A stretch of 64,000 bases of DNA. Origin: Candidatus Krumholzibacteriota bacterium (lineage in GTDB: Bacteria > Krumholzibacteriota > Krumholzibacteriia > Krumholzibacteriales > WJIX01). The stretch covers positions 718,642 to 782,641 of the forward strand of contig JAXHNR010000002.1 of the NCBI GenBank assembly GCA_034520215.1, in the 5' to 3' direction. A program made the translations under genes and the position numbers. Below the pieces are notes generated by a model. That model had not been told where the DNA came from. It searched no databases and saw only the letters and a program-made list of their open reading frames with translations. Positions 7,764 through 28,616 of this stretch are shown here, piece by piece (positions within the stretch are counted from its first letter, which is position 1; every line of letters begins with the position of its first letter).

Positions 7764-8408
7764 GTGAGAATCATCATGAAGACTGAAAAGCATTACAACA
7801 TGTCCTTTACTGCGGGGAACCTTTGCTTTAACGAATCGGTCATAGTGGCTGATGTTTATAATGAACTTAAGGATTGGGAAAAGACGAAAGAGAGGGTGTT
7901 GCAGGATAATCTGCTACAGGCGCACCGGATGAATTCTGCGATAAGAATTTACCGCGAAGTGGAAGAAAGATTGAAATGCCTGACTGCTGACGAATTCGTT
8001 TTTTTACTATCCGGCAGCAGATTTGAGAAGCTTTGCCTGCTGTGGATTGCGATATGTAAGAGGCATCAGTTCATTTTTGAATTTGCTAAGGAAGTGGTTA
8101 GAGAGAAATATCTCCATCTGGAAATGCTGGTCACCTACCAGGATTTTGACCGTTTCTATGCAGATAAGGCCGAGTGGCATGAAGAGCTGGAAAAACTCAG
8201 CGATTCTACCAGATCTAAGATAAGGCAAGTGTTGTTCAAGATCATGAGACAGGCAGGTATTATTTCAGAGGAGGGTTTGATAAATCCAGTGATTCTCAAC
8301 AGGGAACTGGCAATGGTGATCATCCGGGACGATAAATTACTGCTGACCGCCTTCCCGGTTTCTCAGAGAGATATTCAGGCTGTACTGGCGGGTAAGAAGA
8401 ATGGTTAG
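7764..8408 (+). CDS. brxA: BREX protein BrxA (DUF1819)
   Basis: A 214-residue protein. After the start it reads YNMSFTAGNLCFNESVIVADVY, the conserved N-terminus of BrxA (DUF1819). It is a small helical DNA-binding-type protein and the first gene of type 1 BREX operons, which block phage replication and methylate host DNA. The GTG at 7764 gives MRIIMKTEK. The in-frame ATG at 7776 (MKTEKHYN) is equally possible, since no strong ribosome site separates them. The 3' end overlaps brxB by eight bases. BrxA is part of the BREX core, but its biochemical role is not settled. Confidence 0.92.
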   Translation: MRIIMKTEKHYNMSFTAGNLCFNESVIVADVYNELKDWEKTKERVLQDNLLQAHRMNSAIRIYREVEERLKCLTADEFVFLLSGSRFEKLCLLWIAICKRHQFIFEFAKEVVREKYLHLEMLVTYQDFDRFYADKAEWHEELEKLSDSTRSKIRQVLFKIMRQAGIISEEGLINPVILNRELAMVIIRDDKLLLTAFPVSQRDIQAVLAGKKNG

Positions 8409-9000
8409 CGGCTTCATAAAAGACAGTTTTGAGCACCTATTAAAAGTACTCAGCAGTGACCGGTTTCTGAATAAACAGGGGCTGGGTAACGAGGTGCCGT
8501 TCTTTATCTTTCCGTTCCCTCCCGAGTTTTCCAACAAGGTCTCAAAGATGGGTAAGCAGCTGATGGGAAAGCTGAAAAATATGGGTATAGATGTGCTTAA
8601 GATCAATCTTTATGATCTTTCAGTTGAACTGCTTGAAAAAAGAGGGATCTGGCAAAAGCTAATCGAGATCGAAAAAGATACAACCAAAGAAAAGTTCAAG
8701 GAGATCCTGCAGGGGCCGCTGGATATAGAGAATCACCTTATTCCGGCGATAGCAGAGAAGATGAAGAGGCAGGATTTTGATCTGATGTTTATCACCGGTG
8801 TGGGAGAAGTGTTCCCGTATATAAGATCTCATACGGTTCTTAATAATCTGCAGAGTACTGCTGATGAAAAGCCGACTGTTATGTTCTTTCCGGGAGAGTT
8901 TATACACTCACCGGAGAAGGGGGCATCCCTGGAACTGTTCGGGCGGCTACATGATGATAATTACTACAGGGCATTTAATATTGCTGAATACAAGGTTTGA
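8401..9000 (+). CDS. brxB: BREX protein BrxB (DUF1788)
   Basis: A 199-residue protein matching the BrxB/DUF1788 family: an N-terminal SGFIKDSFEHLLKVL helix, then FFIFPFPPEFS, a DLSVELLEKRGIW block, and the C-terminal segments FITGVGEVFPYIRSHTVLNN and PTVMFFPGEF that are typical of the family. Length fits (about 200). It overlaps brxA upstream. Its stop (TGA 8998-9000) is followed closely by the ribosome site of brxC. BrxB belongs to the BREX core complex and its exact role is unknown. Confidence 0.92.
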   Translation: MVSGFIKDSFEHLLKVLSSDRFLNKQGLGNEVPFFIFPFPPEFSNKVSKMGKQLMGKLKNMGIDVLKINLYDLSVELLEKRGIWQKLIEIEKDTTKEKFKEILQGPLDIENHLIPAIAEKMKRQDFDLMFITGVGEVFPYIRSHTVLNNLQSTADEKPTVMFFPGEFIHSPEKGASLELFGRLHDDNYYRAFNIAEYKV

Positions 9001-9014
9001 TAGGGGGATATAAG

Positions 9015-12000
9015 TTGAAGATTAAAGATATTTTTCAAAAGGATATTAAAAGGCCGATCGAGGGAGTAATAAAGGCTGATGACCAGAAACATCTTTTAAA
9101 CGAAGTTGAAGAATATGTCCTTACCAATGAGGTGGCTCAAAATCTGGAATCGATGCTGGATGCCTACAATAACTATGAGGGGGGAAACGGTGTCTGGATT
9201 TCCGGTTTTTTCGGTTCCGGAAAATCTCATCTTTTGAAAATGCTCGCTTTTCTTCTTGAGAACAGATCTATAGATGAAAAACCTGTCCTGGATATGTTTC
9301 TGCCCAAGTGTGGTGATAATGAAATGCTAAGGGCAGATCTCAAGAAGGCGGCTGGCATACCATCAAAAAGCGTTCTTTTCAACATTGATCAGAAGGCGGA
9401 TATCATATCCAAGAAGGATATCGACGCTGTACTTCTTGTCTTTATGAAGGTTTTTGATGAGATGTGTGGATATTACGGTAAGCAGGGGTATATTGCGAAG
9501 TTTGAAAGGGACCTGGATAGCAGGGATGAATATCAGGAGTTCATGGAAAATTACAGGGAGGTAGCCGGGAGAGATTGGGAGAAGGGGCGAGAGGAGACAC
9601 TTCTGGAATCAGACAATATCGCAGCTGCATATGCAAGGACAAGAGGGATGGATGATGAAAACGCGGCCTCGGATATAATAGATAAGTACAGGGAGGAGTA
9701 CAGGGTATCAATAGAGGATTTCGCCGAGCAGGTAAAAAGATATATCGACAGCCAGGACAAGGATTTCCGGATAAACTTCTTCGTGGATGAAGTGGGGCAG
9801 TACGTGGCTGGGAATGTCAAACTTATGACCAACCTTCAGACAATCGCAGAGAGCCTTGGTACAAAGTGCGGAGGGCGAGCATGGCTGTTTGTAACGGCAC
9901 AGCAGGAGATGAAGGATGTTCTGGGGGAGAAAAGCGGGGCGCAGAGTACCGATTTCTCAAAGATTAGAGACAGGTTCAAGACCAGGATATCACTGACCAG
10001 CAGGGATGTGGAGGAGGTGATACAGAAGCGGCTCCTGGCTAAAAAGGAGAGCTGCATCACAGAGCTTTCAGATATATACAGTGAGCAGGAGAACAATTTC
10101 ATGACTCTGTTCGGCTTCTCAGGAAGTTCTCGAAAATACAGGAATTTCCAGGGCCTGGATCACTTCATCAGTTGCTATCCATTTATACCGTATCAGTTTA
10201 CTCTGTTTCAGACCGCCATACAGAACCTTTCAGCTCAGAACGCCTTTCAGGGAAAGCACCAGTCGGTAGGGGAGAGATCAATGCTTGCGGTGTTCAAGGA
10301 AGTGGTGGAAAAAATATCAGACAGCCAGCTGGGTAGAATCGCTTCTTTCGACCGGATGTTCGATGGAATAAGTGAGACACTGAAATCAAATCATCAGAGC
10401 TCAATACTGGTTGCGGAGAAGAATCTGGACGATGAATTCGCATTGCGGGTTCTTAAAGCATTATTCCTGGTTAAATATATAAAGGAATTCAAGGCTGACC
10501 TCAGAAATATCGGGATTTTAATGCTGGATAGCTTCAGCGCCGATATAACCTCTTTCCATGATAAGATCAAGAGCGCTCTGGAGCTTCTGGAGAACCAGAG
10601 CTATATCCAATTCAACGGAGAAGAGTACGAATTTCTGACCGACGAGGAAAAGGACATTGAACAGGAAATAAAGAATACAGAGGTGGAAGATTCAGCAATC
10701 CTTGATGAGATGTCAAAGATGATATTTGATGACATTATTAAAACTAAGAAAATCCGGCATAGCGAATACAACCTGGATTTCAGTTTTACCAGAAAGGTTG
10801 ATGGCCGTCAGAAAGGCAGAGAACATGAATTATCCCTTAATATCATCACTCCTTTTAATGAAAATTATGATAATCAGAATGTTATTTTTCAGTCCATGGG
10901 CCGCAGTGAACTGCTGGTAAGATTGCCCGGTGATGATAGAATGCTTTCTGATCTTATCATGTACAAGAGGACTGAAAAATATGTAAGGCAGAATGTCAGC
11001 GTAACACAGAAAGAATCCAAAAAGAAGATACTCAGCGATAAACAATTTCATAATAACCAGCTGCTGGGAAGAATAGAACAGCAGCTGAAGGAACTGATAT
11101 CGCACTCGGAGCTAATCATTGAAGGCAAAAAGCTTGATGTTTCGGCCAGCGAGCCGGTAGAGAGGATATCCCGGGGTTTTGAAAAACTTGTGAGCAGAAC
11201 CTATTCGAATCTCAGGATGCTGGGGAAATATGATTATACAGAGCAAGATCTGGACAATATTCTTCGGAGAAAAGATAAAGAGCTTTTTGAAGGAGATGAA
11301 GCATTAAACGAACCGGAAAGCGAAGTCTTAAATCTTGTCCGAAGGAATAAAGCCAGCGGAAAACGCACCACAATCAAGGAGGTTGTCAGCCATTTTGAAG
11401 GTAATACCTATGGCTGGCCGTTAATGGCTATACTCTGCCAGCTTGGAAGATTATGCGTCAGGGGCGAGATAGACCTGGTAAGAGATAGCAATCTGATCGA
11501 CGAAGATAAAATGAAAGATGTACTTCTAAACACTCACACCTACGGCAACGTGATAATAGATCTGCGGGAAAGAATTGATCCCAGAATGGTGAATAAACTC
11601 AGGAAGTTCTACGGCGACTTTTTCGACCAGCCACCGTCGGCGGGCGAGGCAAAATCTCTGGGAAAGGAGGCCTCAGAAGCTTTCGGCAGCCTGGTTGAAG
11701 AACTGAAAACTATCGCTGATAAAAAACACAGGTATCCCTTTCTGGCCGTCCTGGAAGAACCGGTAGGGCTGATATGCGAGTGCACAGGGAAGTCATATAA
11801 ATATTATCTGCTGGAGCTGCCTGAACAACACGGAGAGCTTCTCCGGCTCAAGGAGCAGGTCATAGACCCGGTGCGGCACTTTATGAGCGGAAGCCCTTTG
11901 AAGATTTATGATGATATCTCAGAATTTCTGAAGCTTCAGGGCCCAAACCTGGACTACCTCGAAGGAGAGGAAAAGGAGGAACTGAAAGGTATACTTAACG

Positions 12001-12476
12001 ACCCGGAATGTTTCCGGGGAGATTCCATGAGGCGGGCGAAGAAGCTGAAGTCAGATCTTGAAAAGAGGATCGGGAAACTCAGAGAGGAAGAATTGGAAGC
12101 AGCCTTAAAGATCCTGCATGATCTGAGAGATAACCTCAAGGAAGAGAATGAGTTTAAGGAACTTTCAGCGGATGATGAGGAAAAGCTGCTGAATCCATTC
12201 AAAAACTTTGAGAGCGAACTGAAACAGAAGAGCTTGATCTCCATGATCAGAGAGAGGATCGATGATTTTAAGAAGATAAAATATCCTGGAATTCTTAAGA
12301 ATATGTCAGAAATGGCAGGCGAGAAAAAAGAGCTTAAGTATGTTACTTTCAGCAAGATCAGGATAGATTTCAATAAAACGCAGCTGAAGAACAGGCAGGA
12401 TTTAGAAGAGTATGTCGCAGCTCTAAGAAGAGCTGTTGAGAAAGCGCTTGAAGAGGGCAAAAGGATAAGTCTCTAG
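9015..12476 (+). CDS. brxC: BREX P-loop ATPase BrxC (PglY-like)
   Basis: A protein of about 1153 residues. I place the start at TTG 9015, because AGGGGGA lies six bases upstream and the product then begins MKIKDIFQKDI, the usual BrxC N-terminus (an in-frame TTG at 8997 is less likely). The Walker A motif GFFGSGKSH is near residue 64 and a Walker B-like NFFVDEVGQY near residue 255, followed by a long helical C-terminal half. BrxC/PglY is the large ATPase of BREX (about 1200 residues), needed both for methylation and phage restriction, probably as part of a complex with PglX and PglZ. pglX follows after 20 bases in the same operon. Confidence 0.93.
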   Translation: MKIKDIFQKDIKRPIEGVIKADDQKHLLNEVEEYVLTNEVAQNLESMLDAYNNYEGGNGVWISGFFGSGKSHLLKMLAFLLENRSIDEKPVLDMFLPKCGDNEMLRADLKKAAGIPSKSVLFNIDQKADIISKKDIDAVLLVFMKVFDEMCGYYGKQGYIAKFERDLDSRDEYQEFMENYREVAGRDWEKGREETLLESDNIAAAYARTRGMDDENAASDIIDKYREEYRVSIEDFAEQVKRYIDSQDKDFRINFFVDEVGQYVAGNVKLMTNLQTIAESLGTKCGGRAWLFVTAQQEMKDVLGEKSGAQSTDFSKIRDRFKTRISLTSRDVEEVIQKRLLAKKESCITELSDIYSEQENNFMTLFGFSGSSRKYRNFQGLDHFISCYPFIPYQFTLFQTAIQNLSAQNAFQGKHQSVGERSMLAVFKEVVEKISDSQLGRIASFDRMFDGISETLKSNHQSSILVAEKNLDDEFALRVLKALFLVKYIKEFKADLRNIGILMLDSFSADITSFHDKIKSALELLENQSYIQFNGEEYEFLTDEEKDIEQEIKNTEVEDSAILDEMSKMIFDDIIKTKKIRHSEYNLDFSFTRKVDGRQKGREHELSLNIITPFNENYDNQNVIFQSMGRSELLVRLPGDDRMLSDLIMYKRTEKYVRQNVSVTQKESKKKILSDKQFHNNQLLGRIEQQLKELISHSELIIEGKKLDVSASEPVERISRGFEKLVSRTYSNLRMLGKYDYTEQDLDNILRRKDKELFEGDEALNEPESEVLNLVRRNKASGKRTTIKEVVSHFEGNTYGWPLMAILCQLGRLCVRGEIDLVRDSNLIDEDKMKDVLLNTHTYGNVIIDLRERIDPRMVNKLRKFYGDFFDQPPSAGEAKSLGKEASEAFGSLVEELKTIADKKHRYPFLAVLEEPVGLICECTGKSYKYYLLELPEQHGELLRLKEQVIDPVRHFMSGSPLKIYDDISEFLKLQGPNLDYLEGEEKEELKGILNDPECFRGDSMRRAKKLKSDLEKRIGKLREEELEAALKILHDLRDNLKEENEFKELSADDEEKLLNPFKNFESELKQKSLISMIRERIDDFKKIKYPGILKNMSEMAGEKKELKYVTFSKIRIDFNKTQLKNRQDLEEYVAALRRAVEKALEEGKRISL

Positions 12477-12496: not shown

Positions 12497-15400
12497 ATGG
12501 ACACCAGCCACCTTGAGAAATTTGCCAGGTCTGCCAGGCGTCAGCTTATTGATCAGGTATCAGCCCGGCTGGATTGGGTGCTGAACACAGACAGCGTTGA
12601 ACTCCGCGAGAGAAAAGCTGCGGTGAATGCTCTCAAGAAACAGATCGAAGCCAGCTCCAGAGGGGAAGTGACCGAACGGATCGCATATATATGGTTCAAC
12701 CGTTTCTGCGCCCTCAGGTTCATGGATGCAAATAACTACACCGAAGAAGGTGTAGTATCGCCGGAGCCGGGGTTCACCCAGCCGGAGATGCTCAGAAACG
12801 CCAAGGGTGGGCATATAGAGGACAGACTGGTCCCGTTCATTGACAGCAAGAGGGTACTGGGCCTTCTTAATGGTCAGGTGCCTTCCTCAGATCCCCAGGG
12901 AGAAGCGTACAGGATGCTCCTGGTAGCGGTGTGCAACTACTACAACTCCATAATGCCCTTCATGTTCGAGCAGATAGACGATTACACCGAGCTTCTGATC
13001 CCCGAGGACCTGCTCTCGGGAGATTCGATACTGCATGCCGTAAGAGAGACTCTGACAGCGGACAGATGCGGGGATGTGGAGGTTATCGGATGGCTGTACC
13101 AGTTCTACATCTCGGAGAGAAAAGAGCAGGTATACAGGAAACTGAAAAAGCAAAAGAAAGTACAGCCGGAAGAGATACCGGCAGTCACCCAGCTTTTCAC
13201 CCCTCACTGGATAGTCCGATACCTGACAGAGAACTCCCTGGGAAGGCTATGGATGCTGAACCGGCCGGATTCAGCATTAAAAAAGCGGATGGATTATTAC
13301 ATTGAGCATCAAGAAAAACAGGATGATTTTCTCAGGATAAACACCCCTGAAGAGATAAAGGTGTGCGACCCTGCCTGCGGCTCCGGCCACATGCTGGTAT
13401 ACGCATTCGATCTGCTGTACGCAGTATACGAGGGGGAGGGGTATCAGGCATCAGAGATACCATCGCTGATACTGCAGAACAACCTGTTTGGAATAGAGAT
13501 CGACCAGCGGGCAGCAGCCCTGGCTGCCTTCGCCCTGGTAATGAAGGCACGGGAGAAAGACAGGAGGTTTTTCAGCGATCCCACTCAGCCGAATATCTGT
13601 GTGCTGGAGAATATCTCTTTCGAGCACGGAGAGCTGGAAAAGTACATGGACAGGATAGGAAGGGACCTGTTCACCGCCGATCTTGAAACAACCCTCAACC
13701 AGTTCCAGGAGGCAGACAACTTCGGTTCCCTGATCAGACCGGAAGTGAAAGACCTTGGCTATATCCGCCAGACCCTTGAAGAGAAGGGAATGTACAGCGA
13801 CATTTTCTTGCATGAAACACACAGGAAGGTACTAAAAGCGCTTGAGCAGGCAGACTACCTGGGCAGGAAATACCATGTGGTAATAGCAAATCCGCCTTAT
13901 ATGGGAAGCAAGAATATGAACGGGCGGCTGAAGGAGTTTTCCAGAAAAAACTACAAGAAGAGCAAATCGGATCTTTTTGCGATGTTTATAGAAAGAAATC
14001 TGGAATTAGCAGGTGAAAATGGGTTTGTCAGTATGATAACTATGCAAAGCTGGATGTTTCTGTCATCTTTCGAAAATCTTCGTAATAAAATTCTGGATAG
14101 CAGCACCATCTTTTCTATGGCGCATTTGGGCCCAAATGCTTTTGATAGCATCGGAGGGCATGTAGTATCAACAACTTCATTTGTTATAGAAAACTCTATC
14201 AAACCGCAATACGAGGGGTCTTATTTGAGACTTGTTGACGGTAAAAACGAGGAGGAGAAGGAATCTGAACTTATTAAAAAAAGAGAGGAACCCTTCCGCG
14301 CCTCTGCCAGCGACTTCAAGAAAATACCCGGGTCGCCGATTGCGTATTGGGCGAGTGAGAGGGTGCGGGAGATATTTGTGATAGGTGATTTATTGTCCCC
14401 GGTTGCTAAACCCTGTGTGGGTTTACAATCCGGGGACAATAATTTATTTAGAAGAAATTGGCAAGAGATCAGTTTTCATAAAATTGGTTTCTTTGGATTT
14501 GAGGAATCATTAAAGTGGTTTCCATATAATAGCGGTGGTAAATATAGAAAATGGTATGGAAATCATTATTACGTGGTAGATTGGGAAAATGATGGTGAAA
14601 GGATAAAAAACTTTAAAGACAGCTCTGGAAATATTCGATCTAGACCTCAAAATACGCATTTTTATTTTAGAGAAAGCATTTCATGGTCTAAAGTTACCTC
14701 TGGTGGATTAGCTATGAGATATTTTCCAGAAGGATTTATTTTTGATGTCGCTGGTTGTTCCATATTCGGAAAAAATAATAAAATAATTCATTTATTAGGA
14801 TTCTTTAATGGAGTCATAAAAGATCCTTTAATATCTTCTTTGAGTCCTACTTTAAATTATGAGGTTGGACAGATTGCTAAAACTCCAATAATTGCTCTCG
14901 ATCGTATTACTTTGAATGACATTGACAAAATAGTAAGAGAAAATATTAAAATCGCCAAATCCGACTGGGATGCCTACGAACGCTCCTGGGATTTCGAGAC
15001 ACTCCCACTGCTCAGCCCTGAGTTCCGCCACCCCACCCTCAAAGAAACCTACTCCGAACTCCGCGAACACTGGCAGGGGATGACAGACCGGATGAAAGAG
15101 CTGGAGGAAGAGAACAACCGCATCTTTATCGAGGCCTACGGGCTGGAAGAAGAGCTGACTCCGGATGTTCCCCTGAAGGAGATCACCCTGACCTGTAACC
15201 CCCATTACAGATACAAAGGAGACCGAAGTGAAGAAGAGCTGGAAGCTCTCCTTCTTTCCGATACCATGAAAGAACTCATCTCCTATGCGGTCGGATGCAT
15301 GTTCGGAAGATACTCCCTGGATAAGCCGGGGCTGATACTTGCCAACCAGGGAGAGACCATAGGTGACTACCTGGAGAAGGTTCCCGAGCCCAGCTTCATG

Positions 15401-15994
15401 GCTGATGACGACAACGTTATTCCGGTTCTTGACAGGGGCTGGTTTAACGACGATATCACAGAACGATTCTACAGATTCCTGAAGGTTGCTTTTGGCGAGG
15501 AGAAGTTTGAAGAGAACCTGCAATTTATAGAAAACTCTCTGGAGCCCAGAGAGGGGAAGAAGCTGACAGTCCGTAAATATTTCTTAACAAAATTCTACAA
15601 AGATCATGTGAGGCGTTATAAAAAGCGTCCCATATACTGGCTTTTCTCCAGCCCGAAGAAGAGCTTTCAGGCGCTGATATATATGCACCGGTACCGTCCC
15701 GATACGGTGAGTGTAGTGCTGAACGGATACCTTCGGGATTACCGGGCCAAGCTCAGATCCAGGAAGGATCATCTGGAGCATGTGAGATTAAGCAGTGAGG
15801 ATAAGAGGGAGAAGACCAAAGCCCTAAAAGAGATAGAGAAGATCAGAAAGATAATTAACGAGCTTGAGAAGTATGAGAGAGAAGTTCTGTATCCATTGGC
15901 TACGAAGAATATAGATATTGACCTGGATGACGGGGTGAAGGTGAACTATCCTGAGTTCGGAAAAGCTCTTCGAAAGGTCATGGGGCTCAGCTGA
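12497..15994 (+). CDS. pglX: BREX adenine-specific DNA methyltransferase PglX (BrxX)
   Basis: An 1165-residue protein, the usual length for PglX. Motif I is CDPACGSGHMLVYAF (about residues 290-304, AdoMet binding) and motif IV is ANPPYMGSK (about residues 459-467, adenine-N6 catalytic site). Long C-terminal parts include the target-recognition domain. PglX methylates a non-palindromic site on host DNA, which marks self. The segment at about 14400-14950 is much more AT-rich than its flanks (19 of 60 G+C in the line at 14461 against 33 of 60 at 15121), as if the specificity region was exchanged by recombination. The start has a GAAGGGG ribosome site. pglZ begins 11 bases after the stop. Confidence 0.95.
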   Translation: MDTSHLEKFARSARRQLIDQVSARLDWVLNTDSVELRERKAAVNALKKQIEASSRGEVTERIAYIWFNRFCALRFMDANNYTEEGVVSPEPGFTQPEMLRNAKGGHIEDRLVPFIDSKRVLGLLNGQVPSSDPQGEAYRMLLVAVCNYYNSIMPFMFEQIDDYTELLIPEDLLSGDSILHAVRETLTADRCGDVEVIGWLYQFYISERKEQVYRKLKKQKKVQPEEIPAVTQLFTPHWIVRYLTENSLGRLWMLNRPDSALKKRMDYYIEHQEKQDDFLRINTPEEIKVCDPACGSGHMLVYAFDLLYAVYEGEGYQASEIPSLILQNNLFGIEIDQRAAALAAFALVMKAREKDRRFFSDPTQPNICVLENISFEHGELEKYMDRIGRDLFTADLETTLNQFQEADNFGSLIRPEVKDLGYIRQTLEEKGMYSDIFLHETHRKVLKALEQADYLGRKYHVVIANPPYMGSKNMNGRLKEFSRKNYKKSKSDLFAMFIERNLELAGENGFVSMITMQSWMFLSSFENLRNKILDSSTIFSMAHLGPNAFDSIGGHVVSTTSFVIENSIKPQYEGSYLRLVDGKNEEEKESELIKKREEPFRASASDFKKIPGSPIAYWASERVREIFVIGDLLSPVAKPCVGLQSGDNNLFRRNWQEISFHKIGFFGFEESLKWFPYNSGGKYRKWYGNHYYVVDWENDGERIKNFKDSSGNIRSRPQNTHFYFRESISWSKVTSGGLAMRYFPEGFIFDVAGCSIFGKNNKIIHLLGFFNGVIKDPLISSLSPTLNYEVGQIAKTPIIALDRITLNDIDKIVRENIKIAKSDWDAYERSWDFETLPLLSPEFRHPTLKETYSELREHWQGMTDRMKELEEENNRIFIEAYGLEEELTPDVPLKEITLTCNPHYRYKGDRSEEELEALLLSDTMKELISYAVGCMFGRYSLDKPGLILANQGETIGDYLEKVPEPSFMADDDNVIPVLDRGWFNDDITERFYRFLKVAFGEEKFEENLQFIENSLEPREGKKLTVRKYFLTKFYKDHVRRYKKRPIYWLFSSPKKSFQALIYMHRYRPDTVSVVLNGYLRDYRAKLRSRKDHLEHVRLSSEDKREKTKALKEIEKIRKIINELEKYEREVLYPLATKNIDIDLDDGVKVNYPEFGKALRKVMGLS

Positions 15995-16005
15995 AAGAGA
16001 TCATA

Positions 16006-18501
16006 ATGAGCGGCAGCATCGAGAAACGGCTTTCCGGGATGTTCGAGAAGGACCGGATAGTGTTCTGGTATGACAGGGAGCTTGAGCTCAGGGATGAGTT
16101 TGAAGAGCTGATGATCCCCGGAGTGAATAAGCTGGTGATTGACAACAATGAATTCGGTATCAAGTACACAGTGCTCCGGGAGAAGACGGACGATAAATTT
16201 CTGCTCTATCATGAGGGGCCTGAACCTGAAGATATCAGGAACTGGCTTTTGGATATAAAACTGGCGAATGGGGTGTTCCATACAGATCAGGTATCTATCT
16301 GGTTGGATGAGCTGGGGTTGGGCTCTGAGTTCACAGATGTGCTGCAGGGACATGTAGAGTTTTTCAATGCCGGGAAACGGCGTGAAGCTCTCATGAAGAG
16401 CCTTCCCAGGACGGTAAGCGAAAAGAAGCTGAAGTTGAATATGCTGGGGGTATGCGCTTCTGCGGAACCTTCGATCAATGATGTTCTGGAAAGTCTGCTG
16501 GAGGAGCTTTCTGAGGAGAAAGACAGTAAGTTCAGACTTATTGAAAGATGCGGACTGGACAGATTTCTCTGGGGTCAGATGGAGGCGCTTTTCGGGTACA
16601 GCTCGGACAAGCCGGGCGTGCGCGATTTTGCCATTGAACTGTTCAAATCCTGCTGGGCAATGGGGGCAGGAGATACTCCCCGCCTCTATGATGAGGCGCT
16701 GATATTTCTGAACAGATGGAAAAACAACAGAAAGAGATATGAATCTTTCGAGAAGCTTTCTTCAGAATACTCCAGTTTATTGAGCATTGAGAAAGATCTT
16801 GTGGGAATGGACTACCTTAATCTGGTAGATCTGGATTACTTTGAGGTAATAGACCGAAAAATACTCAGCGAGCTTGTAGGGCAGGTAACTGATGAGACCA
16901 TATCAGCTGAGGACTGCGCGGAAATTGTTCGTAAACGCAGGCAGACTCACTGGTATGAGAATTACAGGCATTCTTACGAAGCGGCTGATTGCGCTTCCGA
17001 ATTCCTGCAGAAGATGAATAATATCTCGCTGGAAGTTGAATCCGCCTCTCAGGGTGTAAAGGCTTATGCTGAAACCTGGTTCAGGATTGACCAGTTATAC
17101 CGAAAGTTTATATGCTATCTTAATCAGTCCGGTCACAGGACTCTTTTGGGTACCCTTTATGAGAAAATCGAGAATATATATAACAATAATTTTCTCCTGA
17201 AGCTTAACAATAACTGGCAGAGGGTTGTGGATAGTATGGATAAGTGGAGCGCGTCCGGGGTGAAGAGCCAGAGAGAGTTTTATGAGAAAAGAGTATGGCC
17301 CTATCTGGCTGATGAAAAAAAGATTTTTGTGGTCATATCGGATGCCATGCGTTATGAAGTGGGTGAAGAGCTGGCAGGGAGGATCACGGGAGAAGACCGG
17401 TTCAACGCGGAAACCGAGCCGGTACTGGGGATGCTTCCCAGCTTTACTCAGCTTGGAATGGGAGCGCTTCTTCCCAATCGGAAGCTTGAGATCGTTGATG
17501 ACCGGTCAGGGAAGGTGCTGGTGAATGGTCTGGACTCTCAGGGCAGCGTCAACCGTGGTAAGATTCTTAAGAAGGAACTGGATCAGAGGTCACTGGTTAT
17601 GCCGGCTGATGATTTCCTGAAAATGAACAATGACGATGCCCGAGAGCTGATTCGCGATAACGATATCATATATTTTTACCATAACAGGATCGATGCCGCC
17701 GGAGACAGAAAGACAGAGACTAAGATATTCGAAGCTGTGGAGAAAACCGTCGAAGAGTTGATGCTGATGATAAGAAGACTGACATCTGCAAACGCAAATA
17801 ATATTCTGATCACCTCTGATCATGGATTTATCTATCAGGACAGGGAAATTGATTTAAGTGATTTTACCGAACCTGTTCATAGGGAAGAGGATGTTTTCGT
17901 ATGGGACCGGAGATATATAATAGGCAGAAACCTTTCAGATCACCCCAGCTTGCGTAAGTTTTCGGCGAAGGAGCTGGGGCTGGAAGGCGACCTGGAGGTT
18001 CAGATCCCCAAATCCATAAACCGCCTCCGGCAAAAGGGCTCCGGAAGCAGATACGTTCATGGTGGAGCATCGCTGCAGGAAGTAGTATTGCCGGTTATCC
18101 ATGTGAATAAGAAGCGAAAGAGTGATATAAGCACCGTAGGTGTTGATATCCTGGGCGAGCCGAACAGGGTGATCTCATCCGGCCAGCATACCGTGGTGTT
18201 CTATCAGACAGAACCGGTGGGGGGAAAGAAAAAGCCGATAGAGCTGCATGCGGGGTTTTACAATGCGGATGGAGATCTAATCTCCGAAGAGCACAAACTC
18301 GTTTTCAATTACGAATCTGAAAACCCAAGAGATCGTGAGAAAAAGGTTAGATTTATATTCTCCAGAGATTCGGAAAAGGCCAAGGATCAGGAAATCGTGC
18401 TGAAGTTACAGGAGCAGATAGCTGACACATCTCACATGAAAGATTATAAGACCGCGCATTATCAATTCAGAAGATCGTTCACCAGTGATTTTGACTTTTA
18501 G
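16006..18501 (+). CDS. pglZ: BREX phosphatase-fold protein PglZ
   Basis: An 831-residue protein with the alkaline-phosphatase-superfamily PglZ domain: VVISDAMRYEVGEELA (about residue 445), TEPVLGMLPSFTQLGMGALL, and the late metal-ligand motif ITSDHGFIYQDRE (about residue 604). It has an N-terminal domain with EKDRIVFWYDRELELRDEF, common in PglZ. PglZ is the other defining BREX core gene besides PglX and is needed for phage exclusion; the natural substrate is not established. The C-terminal ~150 residues are beta-rich. It is embedded in the operon, with brxL 11 bases downstream. Confidence 0.94.
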   Translation: MSGSIEKRLSGMFEKDRIVFWYDRELELRDEFEELMIPGVNKLVIDNNEFGIKYTVLREKTDDKFLLYHEGPEPEDIRNWLLDIKLANGVFHTDQVSIWLDELGLGSEFTDVLQGHVEFFNAGKRREALMKSLPRTVSEKKLKLNMLGVCASAEPSINDVLESLLEELSEEKDSKFRLIERCGLDRFLWGQMEALFGYSSDKPGVRDFAIELFKSCWAMGAGDTPRLYDEALIFLNRWKNNRKRYESFEKLSSEYSSLLSIEKDLVGMDYLNLVDLDYFEVIDRKILSELVGQVTDETISAEDCAEIVRKRRQTHWYENYRHSYEAADCASEFLQKMNNISLEVESASQGVKAYAETWFRIDQLYRKFICYLNQSGHRTLLGTLYEKIENIYNNNFLLKLNNNWQRVVDSMDKWSASGVKSQREFYEKRVWPYLADEKKIFVVISDAMRYEVGEELAGRITGEDRFNAETEPVLGMLPSFTQLGMGALLPNRKLEIVDDRSGKVLVNGLDSQGSVNRGKILKKELDQRSLVMPADDFLKMNNDDARELIRDNDIIYFYHNRIDAAGDRKTETKIFEAVEKTVEELMLMIRRLTSANANNILITSDHGFIYQDREIDLSDFTEPVHREEDVFVWDRRYIIGRNLSDHPSLRKFSAKELGLEGDLEVQIPKSINRLRQKGSGSRYVHGGASLQEVVLPVIHVNKKRKSDISTVGVDILGEPNRVISSGQHTVVFYQTEPVGGKKKPIELHAGFYNADGDLISEEHKLVFNYESENPRDREKKVRFIFSRDSEKAKDQEIVLKLQEQIADTSHMKDYKTAHYQFRRSFTSDFDF

Positions 18502-18512
18502 AGGGATTAGAT

Positions 18513-20543
18513 ATGAACTATCTGGATGAGAAGATTACAGAAGTATTCTCCGGCCTGGTGGTCCGTAAGGACCTGGTTAAACTGGTCAAGGGGAACGCCA
18601 TTGTGCCAACCTACGTGCTGGAGTACCTGCTGGGGCAGTACTGCGCTACCAGCGACGAGGAGAGCATCAGCTCCGGCATAGAGACAGTACGGGAGGTTCT
18701 GCGAAAGCATTTCGTACACCGAAACGAAGCGGAGCTGGTTAAATCGAGGATAAGAGAGCAGGGCCGGCACAAGGTCATCGATAAGATAAGCGTACGGCTT
18801 AATGACAAGACCAATACCTATGAGGCCTCTTTCTCCAACCTCGGGATCAAGAAGGTGCTGGTCAATTCTGACACGGTCAAGAAACATCCCAAACTCCTTC
18901 TTACAGGAGTGTGGTCCATAGCAGACCTTGAGTTCGAGTACACCGAGGATTCCAGGGTATGCCCTTGGATCATGAGATCTCTCAAACCGATCCAGTTGTC
19001 ATATTTCGATATAGATGAATACCTTGATAAGAGAAAAGATTTCAAGACCGAAGAATGGATCGATCTTCTTATTCAGAGCATCGGATTCGACCCTGAGAAG
19101 TTCACCCGGCGCGGCAAGCTGCTGCAGCTGGTCAGGCTGATCCCTTACTGCGAAAGGAACTACAATCTGATAGAGCTCGGCCCCAAGGGAACTGGCAAGT
19201 CTCATATATACTCTGAATTCTCGCCCCACGGTATTCTCATATCGGGCGGCGAGGTGACGGTGCCGAAGTTGTTTGTTAATAATTCAACCGGTCAGATAGG
19301 GTTGGTTGGCTTCTGGGATACAGTCGCTTTCGATGAATTCTCCGGGAAGAAGAAGCGTTCCAACAAGGCCCTGGTGGATATCCTGAAGAATTACATGGCC
19401 AACAAATCATTCTCCAGAGGTATAGAAACACTGGGAGCCGAGGCATCCCTGGCTTTCGTCGGCAACACCAGACATAACGTTGAATACATGCTCAGGCATT
19501 CCGACCTCTTCGACGAGGTCCCCCATCAGTACCATGACTCCGCCTTCTTCGACCGGCTTCATTTCTATATTCCCGGATGGGAAGTTGATATTATCCGGGG
19601 TGAGATGTTCTGCGATGGGTATGGCTTTGTGGTGGACTACCTGGCGGAGATACTCCGTTCTGTCAGGGACCACGACTACAGCCAGTTCTACAGTGATGAT
19701 TTCGAACTGTTCCCGGAGATTTCAACAAGGGACAGGGACGGTATAAATAAAACCTTCTCGGGGCTTCTTAAGATACTGTACCCCAACAGGGAAGCTACCA
19801 GAGATGAAAAAAGGGAGATACTAGAATTTGCAATAGAGGGCCGCAAGCGCATCAAGGACCAGATCATGAGGATTGATCCGACCTATACGGATGTCAGGTT
19901 CGGCTATATTGACCTTGACAGCAAAGAGGAAATTCTCGTAAGGACGATGGAGGAGGAGAAATTCCCGCAGTTCTACGGAAGCGTTGGTAAGCCCTATCCT
20001 GAAAAATCAGCAGAAATGGATAAAAGAGCTGATAATAAGAGGGTTATAAAAAACGATATGGAGGTTAAATACCTGAGAACTCTGATAACAAGAGGTGAAA
20101 ACAAGAATCTCGAATTTAAATCATCACTCAGGTGGGATTATTCTAAAAACAAGAAGAACAAGAATCTGCAGAATAATGTAGCAAAAACGATAGCCGCATT
20201 CTCTAATACAGAGGGTGGAATTCTTCTTATCGGTGTCAGTAACAACGGAGAAATATTGGGGATAGAGAATGACCTTAAGAGTCTGGGAGGAGACAGGGGC
20301 CTGGACGGCTTCCGGCTCCAGATAGATGATATAATATGCAAGAAGCTGGGAACCCCTATTACAGCCAATTGCAAGGTCAAGATTATTGAGATCGAAGGGA
20401 AAAAGGTCTGTCATATAGATGTTTCCAGTAGCTCAAAACCTATATATGTACACGAAAATGACTTCTTCATCAGATCCGCGGCCTCAACCCGACAGCTGAC
20501 CACGAAGGAAGTGGGCGCTTATATCAGGGAAAGGTGGGGGTAG
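18513..20543 (+). CDS. brxL: BREX AAA+ protein BrxL with a C-terminal AlbA_2/Schlafen-type domain
   Basis: A 676-residue protein. Residues 1-~500 match BrxL: N-terminal domain, Walker A GPKGTGKSH (223-231), a Walker B-like VAFDEFSG (271-278), FVGNTRHN, and the RIDPTYTDVRFGYID segment. Residues from about 518 instead match the AlbA_2 (Schlafen-type) domain: ENKNLEFKSSLRW, VAKTIAAFSNTEGGILLIGV, NGEILGIEND, VCHIDVSSSSKPIYV, FFIRSAASTRQL. The BrxL proteins I know carry a Lon-protease-related C-terminal region instead, so this looks like a domain replacement. BrxL binds DNA and forms hexamers during phage defence. The start has an AGAGGGATT ribosome site. It is the last BREX gene, followed by a short palindrome at 20583-20594. 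Confidence 0.92.
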   Translation: MNYLDEKITEVFSGLVVRKDLVKLVKGNAIVPTYVLEYLLGQYCATSDEESISSGIETVREVLRKHFVHRNEAELVKSRIREQGRHKVIDKISVRLNDKTNTYEASFSNLGIKKVLVNSDTVKKHPKLLLTGVWSIADLEFEYTEDSRVCPWIMRSLKPIQLSYFDIDEYLDKRKDFKTEEWIDLLIQSIGFDPEKFTRRGKLLQLVRLIPYCERNYNLIELGPKGTGKSHIYSEFSPHGILISGGEVTVPKLFVNNSTGQIGLVGFWDTVAFDEFSGKKKRSNKALVDILKNYMANKSFSRGIETLGAEASLAFVGNTRHNVEYMLRHSDLFDEVPHQYHDSAFFDRLHFYIPGWEVDIIRGEMFCDGYGFVVDYLAEILRSVRDHDYSQFYSDDFELFPEISTRDRDGINKTFSGLLKILYPNREATRDEKREILEFAIEGRKRIKDQIMRIDPTYTDVRFGYIDLDSKEEILVRTMEEEKFPQFYGSVGKPYPEKSAEMDKRADNKRVIKNDMEVKYLRTLITRGENKNLEFKSSLRWDYSKNKKNKNLQNNVAKTIAAFSNTEGGILLIGVSNNGEILGIENDLKSLGGDRGLDGFRLQIDDIICKKLGTPITANCKVKIIEIEGKKVCHIDVSSSSKPIYVHENDFFIRSAASTRQLTTKEVGAYIRERWG

Positions 20544-23191: not shown

Positions 23192-24031
23192 GTGACAATG
23201 GCAGAGAAACAACCAGACGAAATATTGGGATCGCACCCTGAAGCTGATGCGTTTGGTTGTCATACTCAGGCAAAAGACACGAATACAAATTCAGATGTTC
23301 CGCATCGCGCTCTGAGCCAGGATGATGGAAGCCGTAATGACACGGTGGGGCAGCTCCGAAAAGCGTTAATCCGGCATCATACCAGCGTGGAAATGCGAGC
23401 GCGAGATCAGCGAAAGAGAGAGGATCTGCGTCAGCTTGGCTACCCCGTATCCGACGCAGGGACGCACAGATTCCCGCATGCCGACAAAACCCGAAAGGGC
23501 AACTTGGCCGAAGTGTTTCTCGCGGAATATATTGGTGCAGGCGCGGATGCCGACCTACCCATCTACCGCCTCCGATACAACCCCAATGTCGAACAATCCA
23601 TGAAAGGTGATGACGTTTTAGCGTTCGATTTTCATTCTAAGCGGGTGCGCATCCTTGTGGGAGAGGCCAAATTTCGTGGCACCTCATCGAAAGCGGCCGT
23701 CCAAGAGATTGTGGCAGGTCTTGTTCGATCACACCAAGCAGGATTACCGGCATCTCTTCAGTTTGTTGCCGACCGACTTTTCGAAATGAAAAATATAGAC
23801 CTCGGTCGCCGAGTCGAAAACTGCGCCCTCTTGATGGCACAGGGGAAGCTCGATCTGCAATACGTTGGTTTGCTCTTGAGCAATACAAATAGTAAGGCGA
23901 ATGTAGACCGGCACACCAATAGTGAACTGCGGAATCTCGTCATGATCTCTCTGGGAATTGATGACCCCAGTAGTCTCGTCCGCGACTGTTTTGACGGGAT
24001 TGAGGAGGATGCCTGTGGCGATTCCGACTGA
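23192..24031 (+). CDS. hamA: Hachiman defence nuclease HamA (DUF1837)
   Basis: A protein of up to 279 residues. The DUF1837/HamA core starts at about residue 100: KGNLAEVFLAEYIGAG, LPIYRLRYNPN, then the nuclease-like residues MKGDDVLAFDF (about 137-147) and VGEAKFRG (about 154-161), which fit a PD-(D/E)xK site, then AVQEIVAGLVRSH. In Hachiman, HamA is held by the helicase HamB and degrades DNA when phage damage is sensed. The GTG at 23192 and ATG at 23198 are both possible starts, and neither has a strong ribosome site. The gene overlaps hamB. It lies just inside a cassette-like boundary at 23161. Confidence 0.88.
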   Translation: MTMAEKQPDEILGSHPEADAFGCHTQAKDTNTNSDVPHRALSQDDGSRNDTVGQLRKALIRHHTSVEMRARDQRKREDLRQLGYPVSDAGTHRFPHADKTRKGNLAEVFLAEYIGAGADADLPIYRLRYNPNVEQSMKGDDVLAFDFHSKRVRILVGEAKFRGTSSKAAVQEIVAGLVRSHQAGLPASLQFVADRLFEMKNIDLGRRVENCALLMAQGKLDLQYVGLLLSNTNSKANVDRHTNSELRNLVMISLGIDDPSSLVRDCFDGIEEDACGDSD

Positions 24032-27000
24032 CATTGCCCGCAACATTCTTGAGGATTATCGAACATCGAGAATCAAGAACCTGTTCGCACAATCGAACGC
24101 GAGCCATGTTCTCTATGAAGTGGGCGAGGATGAAGGTAATTTCCCCCGATTTGATCCCGCTCTTATCGACAAAGTCACGATGTCGGCCTATTCGATTCTC
24201 GCTGCGGGTGTAAGCCTTGCCGAGGAAGTGCCCTCGCCGGAGGCAATTGCGGCAATGGAAGAAGCCGCCACCCTTCTGAATAACGTACATCTGCCGCGTG
24301 CGCAGAACGATCCGGCAAGTGGGTTCCATATCCTCGTGGCATCAATGGCCTTTTATGCATCAGGGCAGTACTCACGGGCCTTTGTATCAATACGAAAGGT
24401 CGAGGCTCAGACGGACCTCGCGCGTATGGTCGCTTTGTTCATTCGGAAACGTCCGAATGAACTGATCGGGCAACTGAACCCGTATCTCCTAGCAGACCTG
24501 AGCGATTTCAATGACCCTTGGACTATTTGCGACCATGCTGTGACGACCGCGATTGCCAGATCCCTCTCGCTGATTCTTGAATATTTCGCTACTGGGGAAT
24601 CGCGGCACCTTGAGACAGCAGGCAGCACATTGAATATTGCTATGCGTCTTGCCCAGGATTACGAATCCCCAGCACTATGGTGGATCGCACGGCTTCTGCG
24701 TCTGATGATTCGGGGAAATGGCGATGCGTCATTGTGGCGTATTCTGCCGCCATTCTTTCCGGATGACTTGTCATTGCTGCGCCGATACATCCGACTGCTC
24801 TTGTTTAGCAAGCAATCCATCACGGAACTGTGGTGTTCTCAGCGCGAAGCCGTCCCTGTCGCTCTGGATCGGACAAGGCATGGCGCTGTGATAAACATGC
24901 GAACAAGTTCTGGTAAGACACGCGTCGCCGAACTGGCGATCCTTCAAGCCCTGCATGCCGATCCAAATGCAAAGATCCTGTATCTTGCTCCCTTCAGGTC
25001 TCTTGCATTGGAGATTGAGCAGACACTTGGTCAGGTCTTTGACTGGTGTGGGTTTCATGTTTCCCATTTATACGGAGGCTTTCGACTCAGTTCCGTAGAC
25101 AGGCAATTGGCGGAAGATTCAACCATCACCATCGCAACTCCCGAAAAAGCCAGGGCCATTTTACGATCTTCGCCGGAGCTTTTTGATAACGTAAAGCTGA
25201 TTGTGGTCGACGAAGGACACCTCATTGGGGCAAACGAGCGGTTGGTCAAGAATGAGCTGTTCTTGGATCATCTACGATTCATCGCCAGTGTCACTGATTG
25301 CCGGATAATGATGTTGTCAGCGGTTCTTCCAAATCCAGCGCATCTCGCCGAGTGGGTTACTGGCGACTCCGAAAATGTTGTTCGTTCGGAATGGAAGCCA
25401 TCGGCAGAGAGATTCGGACTGCTTCGATGGCAAGGCGATAACGTTCGCATTGATTGGCGTGGCGACTTTGAGTCGTTCAACCCCCGGTTCGTCCAATCTG
25501 GCCCACTGGGCTGGGGAAGACGCCGGAAGCCCTTTCCCAATAATAAGAACGAGGCTATTGCCGCAACTGCTGTTCGATTGGCCTCTGTGGGACCAGTCAT
25601 GATTTTCTCGGCACGCGCCAACAGCATCCCGGGGCTGGCGAAGGCAGTCCTTTTGGCCCTTGGAGAAAATCCGGAAGAACACCGATGGCCAGAAGTGATC
25701 TGGAAAGCATTTCATGCAACGTGCGAAGAAGAGCTTCCCGGGAATGCTATTGAATTGAAGGCAGCACAATATGGTGTTATTTGCCACAGCAACCGTCTTC
25801 CGACTCAAGTTCGCATGGCAACGGAACGGCTGATGCGGTCAGTGCCACCCAAAATCATCATCGCCTCATCGACGCTGGCACAGGGGGTCAATATAGGAAT
25901 TTCTAGCGTGATCGTTGCCACTCCGTATCAAAGAAGGCACCCCATCGGTCATCGGGACTTCTGGAATATTTGTGGACGTGCCGGACGCGCATTCGTGGAT
26001 GGCGAGGGGAAGATTCTGTTCGCAATCGATGAAACAAGACAAGCGTGGCAGATTCGGAAAGATCGGCAATTGGCTGAAAAGTATTTCGGTGCTGCGAATG
26101 CTGATCCCGTTGAGAGTGGATTGCTGTTTGTGCTCCATCTCATTCGCAATATTGCAAAGAAAGCTGGTGTCAATTTCAACCAATTGATGACCATGGTTGC
26201 CGAGAATGACTTTTCTGGGTTGGGCGAGGACGCCGCCAGATGTTCGGGGATTCTTGATCTCATTGACGATGGTTTGCTGGCACTTCAGGAGGACGCGAAA
26301 GCAAACCCAGGAAACGAGGAGCCTGAAAATTGGGCGGATAATGTGTTTCGCGGTTCATTGGCTGCTATTCAATCCGAAGATGGCAAATTCAATCTCACCA
26401 AAGATGAATTCCTGAAGTTCATACAAACGCGGGCTGAGAACATTCTTCGAACGTGTCCAGATTCCGGAGAGCGCAAAGCATACGTTGTAACAGGATTGCC
26501 TTTGTCGGCAGCGAAGAATCTATATCGGGACAGGGATGAGTTTCTCCAAAAGGCTCAAGAAATCGCCGACGCTGAACAGTCGATTCAGTCCATTGTTGAG
26601 TTCGTCGCATGGCTGGAAGAATGGGCTCGTGAGCACTCGACCGCCGTTGTCGAGGAGCTCCCGGAAAACGAAATAATGGATCTGGTTCGTGAACCGTGGG
26701 TCGCCGGGACGCCCATGCGCGATATTCTTGACGAGACAGCCAGTGCCGATGCCATCTGCAAGAATATTTACGGTTATCAAGTCCCTTGGCTTGTCCATGC
26801 AGCTGCGCAGCAAATAAGAAAAATGGGGAATGAGGAACTCTCCGATACCCTGGCGTCGGTGGCACTACTGGTCGAACTTGGTGTTCCCAACGAAGCCGCC
26901 GCATGGATCTTCCTGGCAGGTATTCGCTCACGTGCTGCTTCAACGGAATTGGCCCAATGTGGCGTCGATCTCGGTAGATCTCCATCGACCGTTCGGAGAC

Positions 27001-27344
27001 GGCTCCGAGACAAAGAAACATTGGATGAGCTGGCATCATGCGTAAGCGAATCAACGCAGGCATGGCTGGAACTTCACTGGGCTGAATCCGCCCGAGAAAA
27101 GGTCAATCTGCCTAAATTCCCGTCCTTTGAGGCCGAAAAGATAGAAAGCCATGACACGCTCCTCGTTCGCACAGATGGGGACAGAACGTATCTCTGTTCC
27201 CCAGATGGTAGACAACGGATGGCCGTCAAAGTGTCGAAAAAGTGGCCATTTGATCGAGTTACCGACGACTATCGGTTTTCGTTTGTGAAGTATGACGGAA
27301 GATTTCAGTTCACTATTCGATCCCCCAAGGATATTGTCGATTAG
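24015..27344 (+). CDS. hamB: Hachiman defence helicase HamB
   Basis: A superfamily 2 helicase of about 1109 residues. I prefer the GTG at 24015, because AGGAGG (24003-24008) is six bases upstream; the ATG at 24009 is too close and one at 23958 lacks a ribosome site. Motifs: Walker A MRTSSGKTRVAE (about residue 295), VVDEGHL (397, a DEGH box), LSAVLPNP (motif III), ASSTLAQGVNIG (motif V) and CGRAGRAF (652, motif VI), a Ski2-like set. A ~280-residue domain precedes the motor. It forms the Hachiman system with hamA, which it overlaps by 17 bases. G+C is about half, higher than in the following cassettes. Confidence 0.9.
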   Translation: MAIPTDIARNILEDYRTSRIKNLFAQSNASHVLYEVGEDEGNFPRFDPALIDKVTMSAYSILAAGVSLAEEVPSPEAIAAMEEAATLLNNVHLPRAQNDPASGFHILVASMAFYASGQYSRAFVSIRKVEAQTDLARMVALFIRKRPNELIGQLNPYLLADLSDFNDPWTICDHAVTTAIARSLSLILEYFATGESRHLETAGSTLNIAMRLAQDYESPALWWIARLLRLMIRGNGDASLWRILPPFFPDDLSLLRRYIRLLLFSKQSITELWCSQREAVPVALDRTRHGAVINMRTSSGKTRVAELAILQALHADPNAKILYLAPFRSLALEIEQTLGQVFDWCGFHVSHLYGGFRLSSVDRQLAEDSTITIATPEKARAILRSSPELFDNVKLIVVDEGHLIGANERLVKNELFLDHLRFIASVTDCRIMMLSAVLPNPAHLAEWVTGDSENVVRSEWKPSAERFGLLRWQGDNVRIDWRGDFESFNPRFVQSGPLGWGRRRKPFPNNKNEAIAATAVRLASVGPVMIFSARANSIPGLAKAVLLALGENPEEHRWPEVIWKAFHATCEEELPGNAIELKAAQYGVICHSNRLPTQVRMATERLMRSVPPKIIIASSTLAQGVNIGISSVIVATPYQRRHPIGHRDFWNICGRAGRAFVDGEGKILFAIDETRQAWQIRKDRQLAEKYFGAANADPVESGLLFVLHLIRNIAKKAGVNFNQLMTMVAENDFSGLGEDAARCSGILDLIDDGLLALQEDAKANPGNEEPENWADNVFRGSLAAIQSEDGKFNLTKDEFLKFIQTRAENILRTCPDSGERKAYVVTGLPLSAAKNLYRDRDEFLQKAQEIADAEQSIQSIVEFVAWLEEWAREHSTAVVEELPENEIMDLVREPWVAGTPMRDILDETASADAICKNIYGYQVPWLVHAAAQQIRKMGNEELSDTLASVALLVELGVPNEAAAWIFLAGIRSRAASTELAQCGVDLGRSPSTVRRRLRDKETLDELASCVSESTQAWLELHWAESAREKVNLPKFPSFEAEKIESHDTLLVRTDGDRTYLCSPDGRQRMAVKVSKKWPFDRVTDDYRFSFVKYDGRFQFTIRSPKDIVD

Positions 27345-27722: not shown

Positions 27723-28616
27723 ATGTTAGAAAAAGACATAGAAAATCTGATAGCAATGTACCCGGAAGAAATATTTAAAGGAGAAGGATTTAAGCTTATT
27801 GAGCAACAGTATTCGGTTGAAGGCAAGAGAATAGATATTCTTTTTGAAGATGGTGTTGGTAGGAAAGTTATTGTTGAAGTAAAAAGAGGAATCTTAAATC
27901 GTAATGCCTCGGGGCAAATAGCTGAATATTATGGAAGATTAAAAAGTAAAAATAAAGATACATTTTATGAAATGATATTATGCGCAAATGTGATTCCTAA
28001 AGAAAGGCGATTATTTTTAGAAAATATTGGGATTGAGTGTAAAGAGCTTGGTATAGCATTTATTTCAGAACTATCAAAAAAATATGACTATACATTTATT
28101 GATGATCGGCCATCATATCAAAATAAACAGCGTGCAAATAATAAAATTACATCACACTATTCTATCGACTCAAATACTGAAGATATTTCTACATGGATTT
28201 TTCAGGGTAATCCACAAAGGTATGATATTTTGAACTCATTATCAGATAATGAGATTGGCAATAATATACATTGGTCTGTCAATCAGCATAAAAGAAAAAT
28301 TAAAAAAAACCATATAGGATTGATCTGGATGTCTGGTAAAGATGCTGGAATCTATGCTCTTACTCGGATAGAAACGGATCCAGCGTTAAGGAAGGATCAT
28401 CCAGCAGAAAGAAAGTACTGGTTGAATGATTCTGAAAAAGAGGAAGCTGTAAGGGTTGAAATGACAATTTTGAAAAGGTTGCTGAATAAACCAATTTTAA
28501 AAAAAGATTTATTGAAAATTAATGAATTGAATAATTTATCAATTCTTCGTCACTACCAGGGAACGAATTTCCCTGTAAAAGATACTGAATGGAAAATAAT
28601 ATCTCAGTTAATATAA
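27723..28616 (+). CDS. PD-(D/E)XK nuclease fused to an EVE domain (candidate modified-DNA-dependent endonuclease)
   Basis: A 297-residue protein with ribosome site GAGGAAAAAG. Residues 1-~125 resemble the NucS/DUF91 nuclease domain: MLEKDIENLIAMYPEEIF, then KRIDILFEDG (Asp about 38) and VIVEVKRG (ExK about 51-53), a PD-(D/E)XK active site. Residues ~154-297 match the EVE domain (PUA-like fold): STWIFQGNPQRYDIL, IHWSVNQHKRKIKKNHIGLI, GIYALTRIETDP. EVE domains bind modified bases, and nuclease-EVE fusions are thought to cut modified phage DNA. Biological role inferred. The gene is AT-rich and forms a single-gene cassette whose attC starts six bases after the stop. Confidence 0.82.
   Translation: MLEKDIENLIAMYPEEIFKGEGFKLIEQQYSVEGKRIDILFEDGVGRKVIVEVKRGILNRNASGQIAEYYGRLKSKNKDTFYEMILCANVIPKERRLFLENIGIECKELGIAFISELSKKYDYTFIDDRPSYQNKQRANNKITSHYSIDSNTEDISTWIFQGNPQRYDILNSLSDNEIGNNIHWSVNQHKRKIKKNHIGLIWMSGKDAGIYALTRIETDPALRKDHPAERKYWLNDSEKEEAVRVEMTILKRLLNKPILKKDLLKINELNNLSILRHYQGTNFPVKDTEWKIISQLI

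Follow-up and report, generated by a model that had tools for sequence, protein, structure and literature searches.

Whether BREX needs BrxL to restrict phages depends on the host. The C-terminal part of the protein differs between systems: in type 1 BREX, an HKD nuclease tail is found in 1030 of the 2913 taxa with BrxL (about one third), most of the remaining type 1 BrxLs have an inactive LonP domain, and those of type 4 have none (PMC12839542). The solved structure of BrxL has two rings, connected tail to tail by the C-terminal domain; this domain lies at the equator, the wide part of a chamber that dsDNA traverses (PMC10164562). At least 1017 taxa have standalone Schlafen RNases alongside BREX and related systems, but these are encoded by separate genes and are fused to a histidine-kinase-like ATPase and a wHTH, not to BrxL (PMC12839542). 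The active site of the Schlafen SLFN13 lies in the C-lobe (Schlafen residues about 170-350) and consists of the triad E205, E210, and D248; mutation of any of the three lowers activity, and E205A and E210A are absolutely inactive (PMC5862951). The triad is also present in human SLFN5, which does not cleave tRNA (PMC8789055).

Here, we analyzed a BrxL that ends in a Schlafen-type AlbA_2 domain. It is encoded in a stretch of 64,000 nt (hereafter, the window) of a Candidatus Krumholzibacteriota bacterium (GCA_034520215.1, contig JAXHNR010000002.1, positions 718,642-782,641). We found no report of a BrxL with a Schlafen or AlbA_2 domain in the literature searched (supplements and subscription papers aside), and the main text of the 2026 BREX survey does not contain this combination.

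A type 1 BREX operon with an AlbA_2-tailed BrxL

Judging from the profile matches of its genes, the locus is a complete type 1 BREX operon, brxA-brxB-brxC-pglX-pglZ-brxL, in which brxL comes last and starts a few bases past the stop codon of pglZ (Table 1). This is the sole BrxL in the genome (2.6 Mb), and its tail is the sole AlbA_2 domain.

Table 1. Position in the window of the BREX genes, of the domains of BrxL, and of the residues discussed in the text.
Feature	Position	Strand	Details
brxA	7764..8408	+	PADLOC BrxA E 1.9e-69
brxB	8401..9000	+	PADLOC BrxB E 5.5e-68
brxC	8997..12476	+	NCBIfam BREX_BrxC 1147 bits
pglX (brxX), BREX-1 adenine methyltransferase	12497..15994	+	NCBIfam BREX_1_MTaseX 1475 bits
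pglZ type A	16006..18501	+	NCBIfam TIGR02687 839 bits
brxL: BrxL N-terminal domain, MCM-like AAA+ domain, and C-terminal SLFN_AlbA_2 domain	18513..20543	+	676 aa, ATG start
BrxL_N, residues 10-141	18540..18935	+	Pfam PF20442, E 5.2e-49
BrxL AAA+ ATPase (BrxL_ATPase), residues 152-463	18966..19901	+	Pfam PF13337, E 8e-127
Linker from AAA+ to tail, residues about 490-513	19980..20051	+	pLDDT <50; family alignments end at 481-511
SLFN_AlbA_2, residues 529-662 (whole tail about 512-676)	20097..20498	+	Pfam PF04326, E 7.8e-19
E529 and E534 (ENKNLE), equivalents of SLFN13 E205 and E210	20097..20114	+	Alignment with solved Schlafens
N577 (codon AAC), aligned with SLFN13 D248	20241..20243	+	Alignment with solved Schlafens

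The N-terminal and AAA+ domains are, by their sequence, those of an ordinary BrxL. Walker A reads GPKGTGKS from residue 223, and the acidic pair of Walker B is D274-E275 in the alignment to the solved structures 8EMC and 8EMH. Over these two domains, the window protein has about 45% identity to the BrxL of these structures, which comes from Acinetobacter and has an inactive Lon-like tail, and the Walker motifs are kept. The two proteins differ in the fold of the tail, and their AAA+ parts fall in separate branches of BrxL.

The tail matches positions 1-117 of the 118 of the SLFN_AlbA_2 profile, with 68.8 bits for a gathering score of 25.3. No Lon domain was matched by Pfam in the whole protein, and neither Pfam nor phmmer with an MIT_C example gave a match to an MIT_C/HKD domain in the tail. 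The NCBIfam model Lon_rel_chp (TIGR02653, 675 positions) aligns with the protein only up to model position 482, and the matches of the NCBIfam and PADLOC BrxL models end at residues 456-511, those of the PADLOC models at 459-511, although the longest of these models have 675-698 positions. A divergent Lon tail is ruled out, since all family alignments end at or before residue 511 and a Schlafen fold is predicted.

A preliminary description of this DNA had read the AAA+ part as a normal BrxL and the sequence from about residue 518 as an AlbA_2 pattern. The Pfam matches bear out both points, with the boundary between the two parts lying near that residue. The description had also expected a significant AlbA_2 match without a Lon match, which is what Pfam returned, and the C-terminus does not align over its full length with ordinary BrxL proteins.

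The tail that was probably replaced

The same description held that known BrxL proteins have a Lon-related C-terminal region. The window protein indeed lacks a Lon tail, but a departure from Lon as the norm is not supported, given the frequency of HKD tails cited above and the tails of the nearest relatives. Compared over residues 1-488, the nearest BrxLs have 65-76% identity to the window protein and carry an MIT_C domain (PF16565), a PLD-like domain that we equate here with the HKD-endoDNase of PMC12839542. In our trees, the AAA+ part of the window BrxL falls inside the clade of HKD-tailed proteins. Since the nearest BrxLs carry MIT_C, the sequences suggest that the tail replaced by AlbA_2 was most likely an HKD nuclease and not Lon. 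HKD-tailed type 1 BrxLs share with the window protein the position after pglZ in the operon and the AAA+ clade, and differ from it in having the MIT_C tail in the place of AlbA_2.

Predicted fold of the tail

We modeled the tail with AlphaFold2. The alignment comprised 8 sequences and only one of the five models was good, with a mean pLDDT of 76.8 and a pTM of 0.75. When this model was compared with the PDB by Foldseek, the first 29 matches were all Schlafens and bacterial AlbA_2 proteins. VIA-align superposed it on SLFN5, 11, 12, 13, and 14 with Z scores of 6.5-10.2, on Schlafen residues about 170-350. The tail thus has the predicted fold of the Schlafen C-lobe, i.e., the catalytic lobe, in line with the Schlafen-type domain of the preliminary description. 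In the full-length model, roughly the first 480 residues match the solved BrxL (8EMH/8EMC) and are followed by a low-confidence linker (490-513) and then by the tail.

The Schlafen core, as found in SLFN5, 11, 12, 13, and 14, in SAMD9, and in the bacterial DIP2311, has in common with the window tail the C-lobe fold, the E-x4-E motif, and the Lys. The Schlafens have a fused two-lobe core, whereas the window BrxL has a single lobe on an AAA+ ring, and their third carboxylate is an Asn in the window copy. The tail is an AlbA_2 domain by its sequence and predicted fold, and at most a putative Schlafen RNase.

Other BrxL-AlbA_2 fusions and their history

We searched genome contigs with an alignment of the BrxL branch of the window (277 aa) and obtained at least 578 relatives. 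Among the best 80 of these, six match nearly the whole query, including the AlbA_2 tail. These six stand apart from the other relatives, since their E-values range from 1e-65 to 6e-58 and the next best among the matches listed is 3e-34. The architecture is thus present in at least seven genomes, including that of the window. Five of the six fusions (L104, L105, L106, L108, L109) are from Chloroflexi, mostly Anaerolineaceae MAGs. The sixth (L107) comes from a contig of 5.3 kb that was binned as Lokiarchaeota, and is closest to the Anaerolineaceae copy L105; mis-binning is possible, and the sequence was likely either mis-binned or recently transferred. The pglZ gene is directly upstream in L104, L106, L108, and L109, while L105 and L107 are truncated by the ends of their contigs. 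The fusion seems to be rare, since in a sample of 400 Chloroflexota genomes it was found only in that of L104. Scans of viral contigs and tblastn searches of plasmids and phages yielded BrxLs, but none with an AlbA_2 tail. In 80 genomes of the window's phylum we found one other BrxL, matching over 1-463 only, and AlbA_2-type matches in other proteins.

The recurrence of the domain order in six other genomes rules out a chimaera of the assembly or a gene-fusion artefact. One may still ask if the AlbA_2 part is just a functionless end of brxL, degenerate or neutral, since one residue of the active site is missing from the window tail, which is also divergent (its end branch in the AlbA_2 tree is 0.87). 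We regard this as very improbable: the fusions are found in at least seven genomes, with open frames, a conserved tail length, conserved E/E/K residues, and AAA+ parts that form one clade.

The AAA+ parts of the window BrxL and five of the fusions group in one clade (ultrafast bootstrap 95, SH-aLRT 86), as do those of all seven fusions (SH-aLRT 87). A single origin of the AlbA_2 tails borne by BrxL is ruled out by the AlbA_2 tree (AU test, p 0.00056). The window tail groups with the AlbA_2 tails of a type IIG enzyme (L226) and of a DruE helicase (L227), and a longer loop is common to the three; the long branches of L226 and L227 leave the exact sister group of the window tail unsure. As the AAA+ parts form one clade and the AlbA_2 tails do not, the trees suggest either two acquisitions of AlbA_2 within a single BrxL lineage or a later exchange of the tail.

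Active-site residues

The three-carboxylate triad of the Schlafens is incomplete in the window BrxL, which has E529-E534-N577 (E-E-N), while all six other fusions (L104-L109) have E-E-D, i.e., an Asp at the third place. In an alignment of 33 tails, 32 retain E529, E534, and K536. The residue at the third position is Asp in 31 tails, Glu in one, and Asn in the window BrxL alone. The window tail is also basic, with a pI of 9.2 for 5.2-8.0 in five other fusions. Since the third carboxylate is an Asn, a nuclease activity of the window BrxL is doubtful. The substitution may weaken cleavage and not abolish it, because among the SLFN13 mutants only E205A and E210A lost all activity (PMC5862951).

These residues bear on two alternative readings. 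One is that all members, that of the window included, have a tail with RNase activity, which cuts tRNA or rRNA once the BrxL ring is loaded, leading to abortive infection. The two residues that correspond to E205 and E210, without which SLFN13 is inactive, are intact (PMC5862951), and the standalone Schlafen RNases found alongside BREX and related systems (PMC12839542) would fit such a role. However, N577 is unique at the third place among the 33 tails, and we find an activity in all members improbable.

The other is that the tail has a structural and nucleic-acid-binding function only: it would dimerise the two rings tail to tail and clamp the DNA, and no member would be catalytic. This would agree with the role in ring dimerisation of the C-terminal domain of the solved Acinetobacter BrxL (PMC10164562), whose Lon-like domain is without the protease dyad (PMC12839542), and with the basic window tail lacking the third carboxylate. 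Likewise, the AlbA_2-like domain of SAMD9 was solved with DNA, and a survey of pAgo names AlbA_2 a DNA-binding domain. Yet binding has no obvious need for residues that are kept in 32 of 33 tails, together with the Asp in 31, and the relatives have a nuclease domain at the place of the tail. We therefore consider a lack of catalysis in all members rather unlikely.

A possible role of the tail in BREX

The reading that we favor, with a probability of about one half, is drawn by analogy with the solved BrxL. It holds that this is a BrxL of type 1 BREX in which an AlbA_2 effector has taken the place of the HKD nuclease, being a probable nuclease in the E-E-D members and a binding or weakened form in the window copy. 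The AAA+ part would assemble as paired rings around DNA judged unmodified by BREX, and the AlbA_2 tails would then sit at the equator of the DNA-enclosing chamber, where, instead of the HKD nuclease, they would act on the nucleic acid brought to it. For the E-E-D members, the conserved residues make a metal-dependent nuclease the most likely function of the tail. It would probably be an endoribonuclease, coupling the sensing by BREX to RNA cleavage. The window copy may bind nucleic acid rather than cleave it: because of its E-E-N triad and basic tail, it is more likely to grip nucleic acid, with weak or no cleavage. A different effector step in this BREX, as put forward in the preliminary description, is plausible. 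A Schlafen-type tail would link the surveillance of DNA to the cleavage of RNA, as in the vertebrate antiviral Schlafens and SAMD9.

AlbA_2 tails on other defense proteins and kinase tails on BrxL

AlbA_2 tails are also found at the C-terminal end of other defense proteins of Chloroflexota: GmrSD_N proteins (L221, L222, L225), an HsdR (L223), a type IIG enzyme (L226), and a DruE helicase (L227). By their sequence, L224, L228, and L229 are also GmrSD-like proteins with such a tail. The type of tail and its C-terminal site are those of the window BrxL, but the carriers are unrelated to it. AlbA_2 is possibly a portable tail of restriction enzymes. No fusion of a Schlafen with GmrSD, Druantia, or HsdR is reported in the literature searched (supplements aside). 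AlbA_2 domains of the same type were also observed in the class of the window (L004-L017), at the C-terminus of proteins of mostly about 500-610 residues; the five of these that were scanned have no other significant Pfam domain and show hydrophobic stretches before AlbA_2.

Two BrxLs of one Deltaproteobacteria/Myxococcota MAG (G084) have a Ser/Thr kinase tail and no HKD or Lon domain (L115:7765-10113, + strand, and L191:634-2970, - strand; Pkinase E 1.7e-34 and 1.9e-41, respectively), and each directly follows pglZ. We found no further case in 46 genomes of the same phylum, nor a report of a BrxL with a kinase domain in the literature searched (supplements and subscription papers aside).

The AlbA_2 tails of other defense enzymes and the kinase-tailed BrxLs suggest that the BrxL tail is a slot for exchangeable modules. 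Tentatively, and with less confidence than the reading above, the C-terminus of BrxL may be a slot for interchangeable effectors, located at the equator of the DNA-enclosing AAA+ ring and filled according to the lineage by a Lon-like domain, an HKD nuclease, AlbA_2, or a Ser/Thr kinase. AlbA_2 would then be a portable module that was added repeatedly to enzymes of BREX, type I, type IIG, GmrSD-like, and Druantia systems, tying the recognition of DNA to the cleavage of RNA or to the capture of nucleic acid. If the tail is such a swappable effector, the natural HKD, AlbA_2, and kinase variants are ready tests in which one ring has different outcomes. The presence of AlbA_2 tails on several unrelated restriction enzymes suggests a shared add-on, which would be missed by the current models for finding defense systems because they score the carrier protein alone.

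Neighborhood of the operon

Downstream of the BREX operon, at positions 23192-27344 of the window, we found the genes hamA (PADLOC HamA E 5.7e-110) and hamB (PADLOC 1375 bits) of a Hachiman system. The succession of the BREX operon and hamA/hamB indicates a defense island. The protein encoded at 27723-28616 combines a NucS_C-type nuclease domain at its N-terminus with an EVE domain at its C-terminus, and is possibly a modification-dependent restriction enzyme. Finally, an AAA_21/OLD-like ATPase is encoded at 31682-32902, with HEC-01A as its top PADLOC match (E 1.2e-48).
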